The position numbers and the translations under genes were made by a program. Source: Caldifarciminota bacterium (GTDB lineage Bacteria; Hydrothermota; Tepidihabitantia; SM23-42). From it: DNA of 44,243 nt. Where the stretch lies: assembly GCA_020355325.1 (NCBI GenBank), contig CP070664.1, positions 2,347,539 to 2,391,781 on the forward strand. Direction: 5' to 3'. Positions 34,126 through 41,143 of this stretch are shown piece after piece (positions within the stretch are counted from its first letter, which is position 1; every line of letters begins with the position of its first letter). The notes under the pieces were generated by a model. That model saw only the letters and a program-made list of their open reading frames with translations. It searched no databases and was not told where the DNA came from.

Positions 34126-35081
34126 AGAGAACACACATTGCACTGCTCGTTTTAGCAATACTGTTTTTGATTTGGTTGCAGCCAATTGATTTTGGTACTG
34201 CAGAGATCACCATACAAAAAGGTGCAAATGCTCGGGAGATTGCGGAATACCTCTCTGCCCGTGGAGTGGTGCGTGACAAGAATGAATTTCTCTTTTGGCT
34301 GAAGATTTCTGGAAAAGGCAAGCATCTGAGATCAGGTAACTATGAGCTCAGAAGGTATTCCAATCCGCTCTTCTTGATTAACGAGCTCACCTTAGGCGGT
34401 ACGTCTGATGTTGTGGTTACTATACCAGAAGGTATAACCTTACATGAAACTGCTACAATGCTGGCCAATCATGAACTCGTCACTCAAGAACATTTTGTAG
34501 CTCTGTGTAACGATCGCAATTTTATTGCAGAATTCGGGTTGCCAGGTTCATCTTTGGAAGGCTATCTTTTCCCTGATACATACTCGTTCAGCAGTACACA
34601 GAGTGATTCTAGCATTGTTAAAACATTTGTTGAAAATTTTAAAAATCATATCATGAAATATGGCATAACCAATCGAGATTCAGTGTATATGATTGTAACC
34701 CTTGCTTCACTCGTTGAAAAGGAAGCAAAGTACGAAGACGAACGGCCCATTATTGCTCAGGTATTCATCAATAGGCTAAAAACACGTCGTCCCTTGGAAT
34801 CATGTGCCACCATTCTGTATGTATTAAAGAACAGAAATATTCATAAAACGAACCTTACCGAGAACGATTTGAAGATAGATTCACCATACAATACATACCT
34901 CCATATTGGACTTCCACCAGGACCGATCTGTTCTCCTGGTGAAAGCTCAATCAAAGCCGTCGTCGCACCTGCTGATGTGGATTATCTGTACTTCGTATCG
35001 AAAGGAGATGGTCGTCACTATTTTTCAAGAACATACCAAGAACATTGTGCAGCAAAGGAACGGTACAATGCGACGAAGTGA
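34122..35081 (+). CDS. mltG: Endolytic peptidoglycan transglycosylase MltG
   Basis: A 319-residue inner-membrane lytic transglycosylase that cuts nascent glycan strands. An N-terminal membrane helix (MKRTHIALLVLAILFLIWLQ) is followed by a LysM-like region (ITIQKGANAREIAEYL, then VVTIPEGITLHETATML) and the YceG catalytic domain: LEGYLFPDTYSF, LASLVEKEAKYEDERPIIAQV with catalytic Glu, and IDSPYNTYLHIGLPPGPI. Its 3' end overlaps the first cyclase-like gene by 14 bases. Confidence 0.95.
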   Translation: MKRTHIALLVLAILFLIWLQPIDFGTAEITIQKGANAREIAEYLSARGVVRDKNEFLFWLKISGKGKHLRSGNYELRRYSNPLFLINELTLGGTSDVVVTIPEGITLHETATMLANHELVTQEHFVALCNDRNFIAEFGLPGSSLEGYLFPDTYSFSSTQSDSSIVKTFVENFKNHIMKYGITNRDSVYMIVTLASLVEKEAKYEDERPIIAQVFINRLKTRRPLESCATILYVLKNRNIHKTNLTENDLKIDSPYNTYLHIGLPPGPICSPGESSIKAVVAPADVDYLYFVSKGDGRHYFSRTYQEHCAAKERYNATK

Positions 35082-37485
35082 ATTTGAAGATATCTTAATT
35101 CAAGAAACGCCATTCTATAAGGAACTGCAGAAAGAATATCGTGACACAGCAACATTTAGTCGTTATATTACAGTGCTCAAGACCATTACAAAGAGTGATG
35201 GTTTCGTAAAATTATTGGAGCAGCGTGGCGCTAAAGCATTGATTTTTCTAGGTAGAAAAGTTCTTTCACTCCAAGAAGAATTCGTTGTCAACTATCAAAA
35301 TTTTCTGATTGACGAATCAAGAAGAGATAAGTGGGAAGAATTTTTTGAACGCTACAGTAAGAATCTATTTGAAATTTACGAGAAATTCGTAGATGGAAGT
35401 AGTGAGAGAGCGCTTATATTTGAAATTGTGAATCGAAAGTTGCTTCGCGATCTTTTAACGAAACACATTGGAAATGTGCCCCGCGAGAGCAAAATGTTGA
35501 TCGCAGAACGCTTTGGATTAGTTATTAATCAACTCTTCAATTATTTTAGGAATTCGCTGGCCCGAAGTGTCCATATAGTTGATTCATTGATTATCGATGT
35601 CTATAATAAAATCCCTCTCTTGCCGATCTGTAGTCGTAAAGAGACGATGCAACTCCTCAGCAAAAATTTTCTCCAAAACGGTTTGCCCGAACCCCTCTTC
35701 ACTGCTATGTTCAAGAGCATGGTAGATTTCTTGTACACAGAGGAATGGAATAAAATTGTAGATACAATCAATAGAAAGACAACATTAAGTAAGGATGAAA
35801 TTCATAATCTCTTTAAATCATACTTCTTTTTTCCCGATGATGACCATCTCTCGGAGATATTAAAATTGCTCAAGAAAAAATCTCGAGAGTTGGTTGGAGC
35901 ACTCGGAACGAGAAAAAAATTGATTGAAGACAAGATTGTGGAAATTAAGAAAAGAATGAGAATGACGGCACATGACCTCAGCAAAAATCTGATTGACCTG
36001 GCAAACGATTTTTCAACAGAAGAACCAATCGATACCATGATAAAAAGACTTCGTCGAGCTTTTTTAAAAGATGCGCATAGTCTCAAGAACTTGAAGCATG
36101 ATCATCAAGAATGTGTAAGAATAGAAACTGAATTGTATAGTATCATGAAATTTAATGTGGATGATTTGTCAAAATTTGTTGTAAAAAACGAATGGGATCC
36201 ATATTTAATTCTCATACTCAACGAAAAAACAAAGATTGATGAAGCGCAGTTTCAAACGATTTTGAAAGATGTGATGGCTGAAATCAGAAATGACAAAGAA
36301 GCCTCAAGTGTTCTCAATAAGTACCGAACTGGAGGTTTCTTAAAAGAAAAATACGATATTGAAACAATAAATATAAAATTCCATGCGATCATGAAAGGCA
36401 TAATTGTGTCGCTCCTTAAATCATTTCTTTTAGAAGAATTAATGGAATACTATCCCAAATTGTCTCGTGTCGTGTCTCCAGAAGGTATTCGGTATGTTGC
36501 AGAAGAAACCACTGCAGGCAGAGTTTTAATGATCGATAAAGATATCGATGTCATTAAGGAATCTGAAGAAGTAGCAAATATGGATGTATCGCGATTTAAA
36601 AATTTAGTATCTGTTCTTATTTATGATATTCGTGGTTCGACATTTATGGGCACTAAGTTGAAGGACGCCAAAAAGGAGAGTGAGATAAGAAATCTCTTCC
36701 AGGAATCTATGCTTGCAATTGTCGAAAAACACGGCGGTGTTCCTATAAAAGACACGGGCGATGGTGGTATTGTGTTGTTTACAGAAAATAGCTATGACAT
36801 AAGGAATCATAAAACAACAAAGATGGAATCAGGGAGTACATTATCAGCAGTACGAAGTGGCATTGAAATGATTCAAGAAACCAAGAATTTCGTACAGGAA
36901 AACATCACCAAATATCAAGATTGGTTTCGTGAAGCTGAAGAACGGAAAATAAACTTTGAGGGTGTAACATATGCGAAACTGCCACCTTCTTATCAAGCTA
37001 TTTTTCAGGTGGGTGTCGGTATTGCTTCGGGGTCTTATCCGAAAGAGGTATATTTAGAGAAAAATGCATTTGGTGAGTATGATCTCGCAGGTATGCTTGT
37101 CAGAGAAGCAAATCTTTATTCTAAAGTTAAGGCAAAAGAGAAGTCGACTGTAATATGCGATGATGTCACTGTTTATAATCTCTTATTGAATGTGAATAAA
37201 TTTTCTTTTCTCGGTGAAGCAGGACTCAAGGTGGATGCGCTGTCAAATGATATTGAGCAGGGCCTCAAGTACTGGATAACCCAGAAAACGACACGTCGAG
37301 GTTTTGTATTCGACCTGTATAAAGTGTTTGCGACGCAGTTGGGCCAGGAAGTATCGCATCCTGGAAGTATCAAAATTGTGTTAGGGCTTTTTGATATTTC
37401 AATCAATGAAGCAGGTGAAATAAAAGATGAGAAGGGTGGTCGGGGGAAATTTCTCTATGAACTGTCGTCAGAGGCATTGGGATGA
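35068..37485 (+). CDS. Divergent class III nucleotide-cyclase-like protein A (805 aa)
   Basis: About 500 N-terminal residues are all-helical and match no family I recognise. They precede a class III adenylyl/guanylyl cyclase-like domain. VLIYDIRGST holds metal Asp520, and IKDTGDGGIVLF holds Lys561 and Asp565, matching the adenine-selecting Lys and second metal Asp. In the last motif Asp672 and Gly675 are kept, but the transition-state Asn and Arg positions read Arg679 and Leu683. An insertion of about 90 residues before VGVGIASG is shared with the next gene. No membrane segment is seen. ATG at 35068 with AAAGGA upstream; a longer frame from 34906 lies inside mltG. The stop overlaps its paralogue by four bases. 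Confidence 0.75.
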   Translation: MRRSEFEDILIQETPFYKELQKEYRDTATFSRYITVLKTITKSDGFVKLLEQRGAKALIFLGRKVLSLQEEFVVNYQNFLIDESRRDKWEEFFERYSKNLFEIYEKFVDGSSERALIFEIVNRKLLRDLLTKHIGNVPRESKMLIAERFGLVINQLFNYFRNSLARSVHIVDSLIIDVYNKIPLLPICSRKETMQLLSKNFLQNGLPEPLFTAMFKSMVDFLYTEEWNKIVDTINRKTTLSKDEIHNLFKSYFFFPDDDHLSEILKLLKKKSRELVGALGTRKKLIEDKIVEIKKRMRMTAHDLSKNLIDLANDFSTEEPIDTMIKRLRRAFLKDAHSLKNLKHDHQECVRIETELYSIMKFNVDDLSKFVVKNEWDPYLILILNEKTKIDEAQFQTILKDVMAEIRNDKEASSVLNKYRTGGFLKEKYDIETINIKFHAIMKGIIVSLLKSFLLEELMEYYPKLSRVVSPEGIRYVAEETTAGRVLMIDKDIDVIKESEEVANMDVSRFKNLVSVLIYDIRGSTFMGTKLKDAKKESEIRNLFQESMLAIVEKHGGVPIKDTGDGGIVLFTENSYDIRNHKTTKMESGSTLSAVRSGIEMIQETKNFVQENITKYQDWFREAEERKINFEGVTYAKLPPSYQAIFQVGVGIASGSYPKEVYLEKNAFGEYDLAGMLVREANLYSKVKAKEKSTVICDDVTVYNLLLNVNKFSFLGEAGLKVDALSNDIEQGLKYWITQKTTRRGFVFDLYKVFATQLGQEVSHPGSIKIVLGLFDISINEAGEIKDEKGGRGKFLYELSSEALG

Positions 37486-39749
37486 ATAAATTTTTGATAA
37501 ACGAAATTCAGCGCTACTGTGAGGAAAATAGTCAATACTGTCAGCTTTTGAAAAAGCGTTATATTAATGAGATAGAGTACGTTCAGAAATTAGCTGCAAT
37601 CAAACAGGGACTTACGTGCTTAGGAATTTCAAATGATACGATAAAGGCATTTGAGGAAAAGACACATCTCGTTCTCTGGCTAAGCCATATGCCGACGAAC
37701 TACGAAGGCGATGAACTATTGTTCTACATCGGCCATAAGAAAATGGGAATACCGATATCCGAGTCTTTGGCGATGAAATGTCCCACACAAATTACTTCAT
37801 TGATTGACCAGGTGTCACGAAAAGAATATATTCATGAGTTCAATAAAGAATTGAAGAAGAACTCATTCTCACTCGATATCTTCTTATATGTCCATAAGAG
37901 TTTCATGGAGGCACGGGTCGAAAATCTCTTGCCAAATTTATTCTCTGATATTGAGCGGTCAGGGTTTGCAGACCTACAGGATGTAATAAACAAAATTCCT
38001 TCCTTTTATTTAAAATATCTCTCTCCAGCATCGCTTGCAAAATTGGTGAAGAAAGTGTCCCTTCTTTTGCGCGAAGCGAAGAGTCGATTAATGGAAGAAC
38101 TGAAAAGTATCGATCTCTATTCGCTCCGTGTGAAAGAACAACTTCAAGGGCTCTATCTTGAGACCGATAAAGGTCTAAAGGATATCATGGAAAGAAATGT
38201 TGAACAGGGAGATGATATACATGCTATTACTCAAAGGATTTCAAATTTATTCTCCCGGACAGAACGGCTATTTCTCGGCAATATTTATCACCTGAAAGAC
38301 TATGAAAATAAACGAGCAGAGATAGAGCAGGTTCTCGCACAGGAAGAGGAGTTAAAATATTATGCAGATAAAAGAGTTTTAAATAAAAGAATAAAAATCA
38401 GTGATGTTTATGATGACTATATGTTTCTTAATAAATACGGATCATTAACCGGAGACGAGGATAAAATATTTTTAAGGGCATTGACACAAGATTTTGAACA
38501 GCTTCACCGAAAGAGGACGAAAGATATCCCCTTGCTGCAAAAATTTGAGACGAGGGGTCTCTTGTCAGTTGGTCTCGATTGTGAGGGCATCAAGGAAGCA
38601 TACCATTCGTTTATGAAAGCAGTTATTATCCCACAGTATATCGGTCAAAGTCTACTCGATATCGTACCATGCCTTCCTCCTACAAATAAAGAGCCTCAGC
38701 GGGTAGTGCGCGACCTGGCGCACTTAAAGATCTTCGCCCTCGATGGTAAAAATGTATTAGGATTGACTGATAGAAAACAAAATTATTCAAAAAATTTGAC
38801 GAAATATGCAGAAACATATCAAAAATGTATCACAATACTTGTGTATGATATTAGAGGATCTTCGTATATGGGCATCAAATTGCATAATGCTATTAAAGAA
38901 CAGAGGATCAAGTATAAATTTGCCGCGGAAATGGCGGGTATTGTTAAAAAATACAATGGATTTCTATTGAAAGATACCGGCGACGGTGGCATTGTTTGGT
39001 TTGCTGAAAATTCAGGTTCCCTCTATAACCACCTCTATACCGAATCTGTAACGGGTCGAGGGATGAAGCTTCGTTACTCGATATTTTCAGGAGCTGAGTT
39101 TGATCTTATCCCTGCAGCTGATGCAACAAAGAGAGCCATTCTCTGCGCACGTGATATGGTTCAAAAAGCAGAAGAGTTTATTAAAGCAAATTTCATGCAT
39201 TACCGCGAATGGTTTGCTGAAGTTGCTGAACGAACACTCGAACTCGACGGTATTACCTATGCTCTTTTGCCACCAGAATTTAAGAGTCTTTTCAGAATTG
39301 GAGTTGGTATTGCATCTGGGATACCAGATAAGGATGTCGTTTTCTCGGCTAACTCATACGGTGATCCGGATTTGGTTGGTCCTATTCTTGCCGATGCACA
39401 CCTCTATGCCATGAAAAAGCAGCCGGATCGTTCACTCATCGTATGCGATTTACCGAGTCTTGTTAATTTGATTCTCAATATTGAAAATTTCGAGTACGCA
39501 ATTGATGAGAGTGATTTCCAAAAATATATAGGGATGGCAGAAGATTTGAGAAAAGAAGATTATGGATATACATTAGCAGACCATAAAATTTCAATTGTTC
39601 CACGAGGGATTCATTTTCTCGAGGAATTGAATAAAATGAAGGCCCTCGTCGATCTACAACCGTCGCATTTCGTTATCGATGATAATGGAATTGTCTACGA
39701 TGAACACCATAAGAAGGTAAAATTCATATACGAAGTCCTCAATATCTAA
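37482..39749 (+). CDS. Divergent class III nucleotide-cyclase-like protein B (755 aa)
   Basis: Paralogue of the preceding gene: an unrecognised helical region (about 1-400, with coiled-coil stretches) then the same cyclase-like domain. ILVYDIRGSS has Asp456; LLKDTGDGGIVWF has Lys497 and Asp501; DLVGPILADAHLYA has Asp630, Gly633 and Ala639. The transition-state Asn is Ala637 and the Arg is Leu641. The shared insertion contains YREWFAEVAERTLELDGITYALLPPE. The N-terminal regions of the two proteins align poorly by eye, so each may sense a different input. The stop and the next start overlap (TAATG at 39747). The pair may act as a heterodimer, the usual assembly for class III cyclase domains. Confidence 0.75.
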   Translation: MNKFLINEIQRYCEENSQYCQLLKKRYINEIEYVQKLAAIKQGLTCLGISNDTIKAFEEKTHLVLWLSHMPTNYEGDELLFYIGHKKMGIPISESLAMKCPTQITSLIDQVSRKEYIHEFNKELKKNSFSLDIFLYVHKSFMEARVENLLPNLFSDIERSGFADLQDVINKIPSFYLKYLSPASLAKLVKKVSLLLREAKSRLMEELKSIDLYSLRVKEQLQGLYLETDKGLKDIMERNVEQGDDIHAITQRISNLFSRTERLFLGNIYHLKDYENKRAEIEQVLAQEEELKYYADKRVLNKRIKISDVYDDYMFLNKYGSLTGDEDKIFLRALTQDFEQLHRKRTKDIPLLQKFETRGLLSVGLDCEGIKEAYHSFMKAVIIPQYIGQSLLDIVPCLPPTNKEPQRVVRDLAHLKIFALDGKNVLGLTDRKQNYSKNLTKYAETYQKCITILVYDIRGSSYMGIKLHNAIKEQRIKYKFAAEMAGIVKKYNGFLLKDTGDGGIVWFAENSGSLYNHLYTESVTGRGMKLRYSIFSGAEFDLIPAADATKRAILCARDMVQKAEEFIKANFMHYREWFAEVAERTLELDGITYALLPPEFKSLFRIGVGIASGIPDKDVVFSANSYGDPDLVGPILADAHLYAMKKQPDRSLIVCDLPSLVNLILNIENFEYAIDESDFQKYIGMAEDLRKEDYGYTLADHKISIVPRGIHFLEELNKMKALVDLQPSHFVIDDNGIVYDEHHKKVKFIYEVLNI

Positions 39750-41143
39750 TGCAAGCTTTAATCTACGATCCAGATCGTTTAAGACTAGCTACGTTGACAC
39801 GTAACGTACAAGATCTCGGTTTGCAGTGTACTACATTGATAAAAGTCGATGATATAAAAAAAACAATAAGAAAACAAAAATGCGACTTATTGATTGTCGA
39901 TCGCACCGCCATTAAAATTCTTGATAAACTCAAAAGATTGGATTCTACATTACCGATCGTCGTCGTCGCTGATCGAAAATCAAAAACTGACTACGAGAAG
40001 ATTATTTTTGCCGATATAGAAGGATTTATACTCAGACCGTATCGGAACGATTTTTTCAAGAAGGTTATTAAAAAAGCAGTTCAAAAGAGACAAGAGATAC
40101 TCTCTAATGTTATAACAGTTACGTCATTGAAACAAAAAATTCAAGAACTCCAAACACTCAATGAAGTTGTTCAAGCAATTAATTCATCACTGCGGCCCCA
40201 AGAAATTATGCGTGTCATTATGGAAAAAACCGCAGACCTCATAAAAGCTGAGGGATGGTCTGTGTTACTTCTTGACGACAACCGGCGTGATCTCGTGTTT
40301 GTGGCTGCGGCTGGTGAGGCAGGTAAAAAAATTATGGGTATGAGGTTAAAAGTAGGACAGGGTGTTGCGGGATGGGTTGCACGGTATGGACAGTCGTTAA
40401 TTGTTCCCGATGTGACAAAAGATCCACGTTTCTATTCGGGTATCGATAAGAAGAGTAAGTTTATAACAAAATCGGTGCTTTGTGTTCCAATGAAAAGCCG
40501 TAATAAGATAATTGGCGTGGTGGAAGTCGTGAACAAAATTGATGGTGAGCCATTTAGCAAAGATGATCTTGAAATATTTGAAAATCTCGTTGCACATATT
40601 ACGATTGCTTTGGAAAACGCTAATATGTATCGCAAGATGGAGGAGGCGAGTCAGATTGATACGTTGACAAACTTATACAATAGTCACTACTGTAATCAAT
40701 TTCTTGATAATTTTTTATTAAACCGAAAAAATGTGCGTGGCACGATTTCATTAATATTCCTCGATATCGATTTTTTCAAACTCGTCGATGATAACTTCGG
40801 TCATCTTGTGGGGAGTGAAACATTACGGCTGCTCGGCGATCGAATAAAGAATGTCGTACGGAGTGGTGATGTTGTTGCGCGTTACGGCGGTGATGAATAT
40901 ATTGTTATTCTACCAAATACCGATAAAAAGACAGCAGCCGTGATTGCGGAAAGAATACGGAGGGAAATTAATCAAGAACCCTTTTATGCCTTCAAGAATA
41001 AAAAATTTAATATCTCGGTTACCCTGGGGGTTGCAACATATCCTGGCGATGCAAAAAACCGTGATGAACTTATCGGCAAGGCGGATAAAGCAATGTATGA
41101 AGGTAAACTCTCGGGTCGAGACAAGGTGGTACTAGCCAGTTAA
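39749..41143 (+). CDS. Receiver-GAF-GGDEF protein (probable diguanylate cyclase)
   Basis: A 464-residue protein that should make cyclic di-GMP. Residues 1-115 form a receiver-like domain with Asp51 (DLLIVDR) kept, but the usual Thr/Ser and Lys are Ala74 and Arg96, so classical phosphotransfer signalling is doubtful. A GAF domain follows (about 145-295, GVAGWVARYGQSLIVPDVTKD). The GGDEF domain (about 310-460) has GGDEY at 380-384 and an intact product-inhibition site RSGD at 371-374. It is last in the ruvX operon, coupled to cyclase-like gene B, suggesting joint control of nucleotide second messengers. Confidence 0.9.
   Translation: MQALIYDPDRLRLATLTRNVQDLGLQCTTLIKVDDIKKTIRKQKCDLLIVDRTAIKILDKLKRLDSTLPIVVVADRKSKTDYEKIIFADIEGFILRPYRNDFFKKVIKKAVQKRQEILSNVITVTSLKQKIQELQTLNEVVQAINSSLRPQEIMRVIMEKTADLIKAEGWSVLLLDDNRRDLVFVAAAGEAGKKIMGMRLKVGQGVAGWVARYGQSLIVPDVTKDPRFYSGIDKKSKFITKSVLCVPMKSRNKIIGVVEVVNKIDGEPFSKDDLEIFENLVAHITIALENANMYRKMEEASQIDTLTNLYNSHYCNQFLDNFLLNRKNVRGTISLIFLDIDFFKLVDDNFGHLVGSETLRLLGDRIKNVVRSGDVVARYGGDEYIVILPNTDKKTAAVIAERIRREINQEPFYAFKNKKFNISVTLGVATYPGDAKNRDELIGKADKAMYEGKLSGRDKVVLAS

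Follow-up and report, generated by a model that had tools for sequence, protein, structure and literature searches.

The C-terminal domains of two adjacent proteins, A and B, encoded in the window (the whole 44,243-nucleotide stretch of Caldifarciminota DNA analysed here) are divergent class III cyclase homology domains (CHDs), which keep the metal- and adenine-binding residues and lack the transition-state Asn/Arg pair. The chances appear evenly balanced that A and B together form, each as one subunit, a divergent protein of the class III nucleotidyl cyclase type, which would probably be heterodimeric, bind Mg-ATP and signal to the adjoining diguanylate cyclase (DGC). The source genome is a single contig of 2.85 Mb, and in the window the genes ruvX, mltG, A, B and DGC follow each other in one direction, overlapping or touching: A starts 14 bases before the end of mltG, B 4 bases before the end of A, and the DGC gene 1 base before the end of B (Table 1). 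The open reading frames, coordinates and residue numbers given for A and B in an earlier sequence-only reading were all correct on recheck. A longer A of 859 aa, starting from an upstream TTG (window positions 34906-35067), was rejected since the extension would overlap mltG, and the ATG at 35068 is preferred because it fits the 805-aa length common to many close relatives.

Table 1. Positions, key residues and basis of the features of the A/B locus, in window coordinates.
Feature	Position	Strand	Content	Basis
A, A-type cyclase-like protein	35068..37485	+	805 aa; helical N-terminal half about 1-490, CHD about 495-805	ORF call, hhalign, AF2, Foldseek
CHD of A	36550..37482	+	metal Asps D520 and D565; R522; adenine K561 and D672; R679 (Asn position); L683 (Arg position)	
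B, B-type cyclase-like protein	37482..39749	+	755 aa	ORF call, N-terminal homology, AF2, Foldseek
CHD of B	38772..39746	+	metal Asps D456 and D501; R458; adenine K497 and D630; A637 (Asn position); L641 (Arg position)	
Diguanylate cyclase (DGC)	39749..41143	+	degenerate receiver-like domain, GAF, GGDEF (RYGGDEY)	Pfam, neighbourhood

An hmmscan gave no credible Pfam or NCBIfam match for A or B, and a PF00211 search of their own genome at the curated cut-off missed both proteins and retained five other class III cyclase domains. A comparison with PDB sequences matched the profile of the family, made from 43 relatives, to CyaB (3r5g, E 8.6e-5). Using hhalign, the family CHD profile was aligned to 34 canonical cyclase domains from related genomes with a probability of 97.8% (E 8.9e-13), in an alignment that pairs the DIRG, K..GD and D..G motifs and in which R679 falls on the Asn position and L683 on the Arg position. 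The controls (a GGDEF profile, N-terminal profiles and column-shuffled cyclases; n=5 shuffled and n=3 unrelated) all stayed at a probability of <=0.5%, and another homology for the CHD was rejected since none of them gave a match. AlphaFold (AF2) models of the single chains had a pLDDT of 85 for B and of 72, with a poor C-terminus, for A, and Foldseek matched both models to CyaC, CyaB and Cya2. Thus, hhalign, the PDB-sequence match and Foldseek agree on the class III homology that had been proposed for both C-terminal halves.

The long insertion noticed earlier before the G-x-G strand is real, as the second metal Asp and this strand lie 84 residues apart in A and 106 apart in B, compared with about 40-54 in canonical WOR-3 cyclases once a few longer values due to motif-match errors are left out. 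The N-terminal halves had been described as different, a description that has to be abandoned: those of A-types and B-types are homologous even with the CHD excluded (hhalign 99.9%, E 1.6e-31). A and B are therefore paralogues over their full length. Their N-terminal helical half, of roughly 430-490 residues, belongs to no recognised family, and the top rows of fold searches with the A and B models are CHD matches.

The roles of the Asn, Arg, Lys and Asp positions in class III cyclases are established (PMC4886424). We counted the residues found at these positions in 86 CHDs of homologues across the WOR-3 phylum. Five residues never vary (86/86 each), namely the two metal Asps, the YDIRGS Arg, and the adenine-binding Lys and Asp, so that the retention of metal and adenine residues first seen in A and B holds for the family. 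At the position of Arg1029 of mammalian adenylyl cyclase we found Leu, Phe, Ile, Thr, Met, Tyr, Val or Ala, and neither Arg nor Lys in any CHD (0/86). The Asn1025 position is occupied by Arg in 37 CHDs, Asn in 19, Ala in 16, Ser in 8, Asp in 5 and Gly in 1. All A-types (37/37) have this Arg, one helical turn before the Arg1029 position, and B-types have Asn, Asp, Ala, Ser or Gly, the Asn being retained only in 19 B-type relatives. Basal members of the family read NLASIL at the place where canonical cyclases read NLASRL, which makes the residue register secure; together with the hhalign register, they uphold the absence of the Asn/Arg pair from A and B. With metal and adenine residues that never change and an Arg1029 position that is never Arg or Lys among the 86 CHDs, this pattern is not due to chance. 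A relocation of the Arg elsewhere was considered and rejected, as no basic residue of the helix or of the next loop is conserved across both types. That the metal and adenine residues are so strictly conserved suggests Mg-ATP binding by A/B.

The family is present in about a third of WOR-3/Stahlbacteria genomes, and a contig scan of public genomes with B-specific patterns returned matches only in WOR-3, Stahlbacteria or TA06 records. Searches of plasmids, phages and viral contigs yielded no relative, and a mobile or viral origin of A/B was therefore rejected. In a tree built without the columns of the active-site helix, a single branch (SH-aLRT 99) separates all 37 Arg-bearing proteins from the rest, so that A-type and B-type are ancient paralogues. 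Among the genomes with full enough CHDs to enter the tree, both types occur in 33. Four have only an A-type, which a scaffold gap or contig ends explain in G004, G003 and G005, leaving G067 as the one real exception; another four (G007, G013, G016 and G022) enter the tree with a B-type alone, and a genome search found an A-type match in all of them. With seven genomes explained in this way by contig ends, gaps or partial matches, the proposal that A and B go together gains support, and they are a probable obligate pair. The families f18 and f23, with nine genomes between them, as well as f29 and f35, are B-only and keep the Asn; two of the B-only families comprise four or more genomes. G136, which is 80% complete, has a B-type only and its sister genome G137 has both types. 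The split of B in G004 and G022 is not a domain split, since the breaks coincide with runs of N (scaffold gaps).

Whole-gene dN/dS between close genomes was about 0.03-0.11 where dS was measurable, and the CHD gave 0.02-0.08 in the two pairs with the least saturation (dS 0.6-1.2); as dS is saturated in several pairs, these values are used as orders of magnitude only. In close genome pairs, the CHD has a lower dN/dS than the N-terminal half. Purifying selection on A/B is strong, with the CHD under tighter constraint than the N-terminal half. The A and B distances are correlated (r 0.96, and 0.91 between families), a correlation that we set aside as a sign of contact since shared ancestry alone yields such values.

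The best functional clue, missed in the sequence-only reading, is a conserved GGDEF gene that comes immediately after B. By hand count, a GGDEF gene lies directly 3' of the B-type in roughly 34 of 41 B-type contexts, including families whose gene orders differ. The f13 copy comes after the A-type instead, and f17, f18 and G088 have no such gene. All full-length copies of the neighbouring DGC have an intact GGDEF motif. Most are GAF-GGDEF proteins with one or two GAF domains; those of f23 and f29 have no recognised GAF. The receiver-like domain at the N-terminus of the window DGC scores below the Pfam cut-off (21.8 vs 30.2 bits), and the copies in f12, f13 and f22 are devoid of it.

Other neighbours recur as well. 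In f12, f18 and f22, the B-type lies directly behind pyrR-pyrB-pyrC (loci L045, L050, L055, L056, L061 and L068); in f12, a GGDEF gene and a uridine kinase-like gene often come next. The A-type of f12 and f15 is directly before valS, encoding valine-tRNA ligase (L046, L051, L057, L066, L069 and L073; L049, L054, L058 and L063), and in f12 it is behind rpoA. The source genome also encodes five cNMP-binding and thirteen GGDEF domains, which makes it likely to have cAMP-type as well as c-di-GMP signalling.

We compared A/B with known systems. They share the fold, the two metal Asps and the adenine Lys and Asp with canonical class III cyclases (PF00211; CyaB 3r5g, CyaC 1wc1), but they lack the Asn/Arg pair, carry extra insertions, fall below Pfam detection and come as paired paralogues with a helical N-terminal half of no recognised family. 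XC_0250 of Xanthomonas campestris, which has Leu and Ala at the Asn and Arg positions, nevertheless produces cGMP, which in turn stimulates the GGDEF protein XC_0249 encoded next to it (PMC3770947). A missing Asn/Arg pair therefore does not prove a dead enzyme, nor does it by itself establish the non-catalytic sensor or the variant reaction that the sequence-only reading had put forward. As in A/B, a class III CHD with its metal residues kept and both Asn and Arg replaced has a GGDEF neighbour, whereas XC_0250 is a single TPR protein using GTP rather than ATP (PMC3770947). XC_0249 moreover has a CRP-like cNMP-binding domain, in place of which the window DGC has a GAF and a receiver-like domain. 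The mycobacterial DUF2652 proteins, which keep the Arg and have Ile in place of the Asn, are likewise cyclase-like with a transition-state residue replaced (PMC4886424); neither A nor B has a DUF2652 Pfam match.

Two different CHD subunits with shared interface sites make up the mammalian adenylyl cyclase C1/C2 pair and soluble guanylate cyclase, and the same is expected of A/B, whose paralogous subunits co-occur in 33 genomes on the two sides of the split with SH-aLRT 99. In a C1/C2-type division the losses are complementary, the metals being absent from one subunit and the Asn/Arg from the other, whereas A and B both keep the metals and both lack the Arg. Elsewhere in the source genome, on the minus strand of locus L123 (3940-7775; G000:C1, about 2497939-2501774), two adjacent class III CHD genes do show complementary, mammalian C1/C2-like losses: the N-terminal CHD of a 1057-aa protein has no metal Asps (FVNFLGF, IIPDS) and keeps GDTVNTAARL, and in a 219-aa protein the metal motifs (RADLSGFT, IIGDE) are retained and the Asn/Arg motif is lost. 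With PycC of Pycsar systems, A/B share a divergent CHD and fold similarity (7r65), and A has a weak HMM match. The PycC profile covers only residues 490-575 of A, around the metal motif (E 2.2e-5), and did not match B; no Pycsar effector adjoins A/B, the neighbours being mltG, DGC, CBS and antiporter genes. Unlike PycC, A/B keep the adenine residues and their chromosomal contexts are conserved. We thus rejected A/B as a Pycsar PycC, the HMM match being partial, weak and confined to A, with no adjacent effector.

By analogy with class III enzymes, the CHDs of A and B would dimerise head to tail and form two interface ATP sites. The site made of B's metals and A's base-binding helix (Lys561, Asp672, Arg679) is where catalysis would more likely take place, since Arg679 precedes the missing Arg by one helical turn on the same helix face and may replace it. 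The other site, with no transition-state residue, would more likely serve regulatory ATP binding. One working and one regulatory site are suggested because, if the dimer is head to tail, Arg679 is present only at the site that draws its metals from B. The CHDs would receive signals through the paired helical N-terminal halves, and the product or the ATP-bound state would act on the co-operonic GAF-GGDEF protein and set c-di-GMP, as the conserved gene order and the XC_0250/XC_0249 precedent (PMC3770947) suggest.

The CHD assignment, the ligand residues kept in 86/86 members, purifying selection, the A/B split, the GGDEF linkage and the XC_0250 precedent all count for such a two-subunit, DGC-coupled protein. 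Against it count the absence of the canonical Arg from 86/86 members, the five other class III domains of the genome, with which cAMP supply needs no A/B, the location of A and B in separate operons in several families together with the two B-only families of four or more genomes, and the DGC GAF domains, in which cNMP binding would be hypothetical and which are not recognised in f23 and f29. Loss of the transition-state Arg in class III cyclases normally costs most of the activity. It is possible, though somewhat less probable than an even chance, that the A-B dimer is a catalytically silent ATP (energy) sensor, which binds Mg-ATP uncyclised and signals to the DGC by protein contact. The invariance of the metal and adenine residues alongside an Arg count of 0/86, the conserved GGDEF neighbour and the growth-related genes (pyr, rpoA, valS) adjoining in other families would suit such a sensor, and so would the canonical cyclases of the same genome. 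Active class III cyclases without Asn/Arg exist, however (PMC3770947), and single-copy B-types keep an Asn that a pure binder would not need.

It is quite improbable that the A/B pair makes a product other than 3',5'-cAMP from ATP or another nucleotide. The consistent, clade-wide replacement of transition-state residues, the B-types in pyrimidine operons of three families and the weak PycC match of A would fit a variant reaction, but the invariant adenine-type Lys and Asp speak against pyrimidine substrates and the PycC match is limited to the metal motif of A. Decay into former cyclases, with the nucleotide function gone and the CHD left over as a dimerisation scaffold, seems very improbable: the Arg is lost in all members, and the Asn in A-types and in the window's B, but the low CHD dN/dS of the unsaturated pairs and the ligand residues invariant across the phylum argue against it. 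Returning to the two-subunit cyclase-type protein, its most specific form, a phylum-specific heterodimeric cyclase with the Arg moved one helical turn on one subunit, the other half ATP-sensing, and a DGC in the same operon through which a mononucleotide signal or ATP occupancy would set c-di-GMP, is in our view unlikely.

A/B would represent a divergent cyclase pair linked to c-di-GMP in an understudied phylum, in a family that current Pfam and NCBIfam models fail to detect. The usual explanation of class III catalysis is the Asn/Arg pair; in this ancient conserved family the Arg never occurs while all other active-site residues are kept, and one of the two paired paralogues consistently has Arg in place of Asn. 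The family is thus a natural test of whether the class III Arg is dispensable or replaceable.
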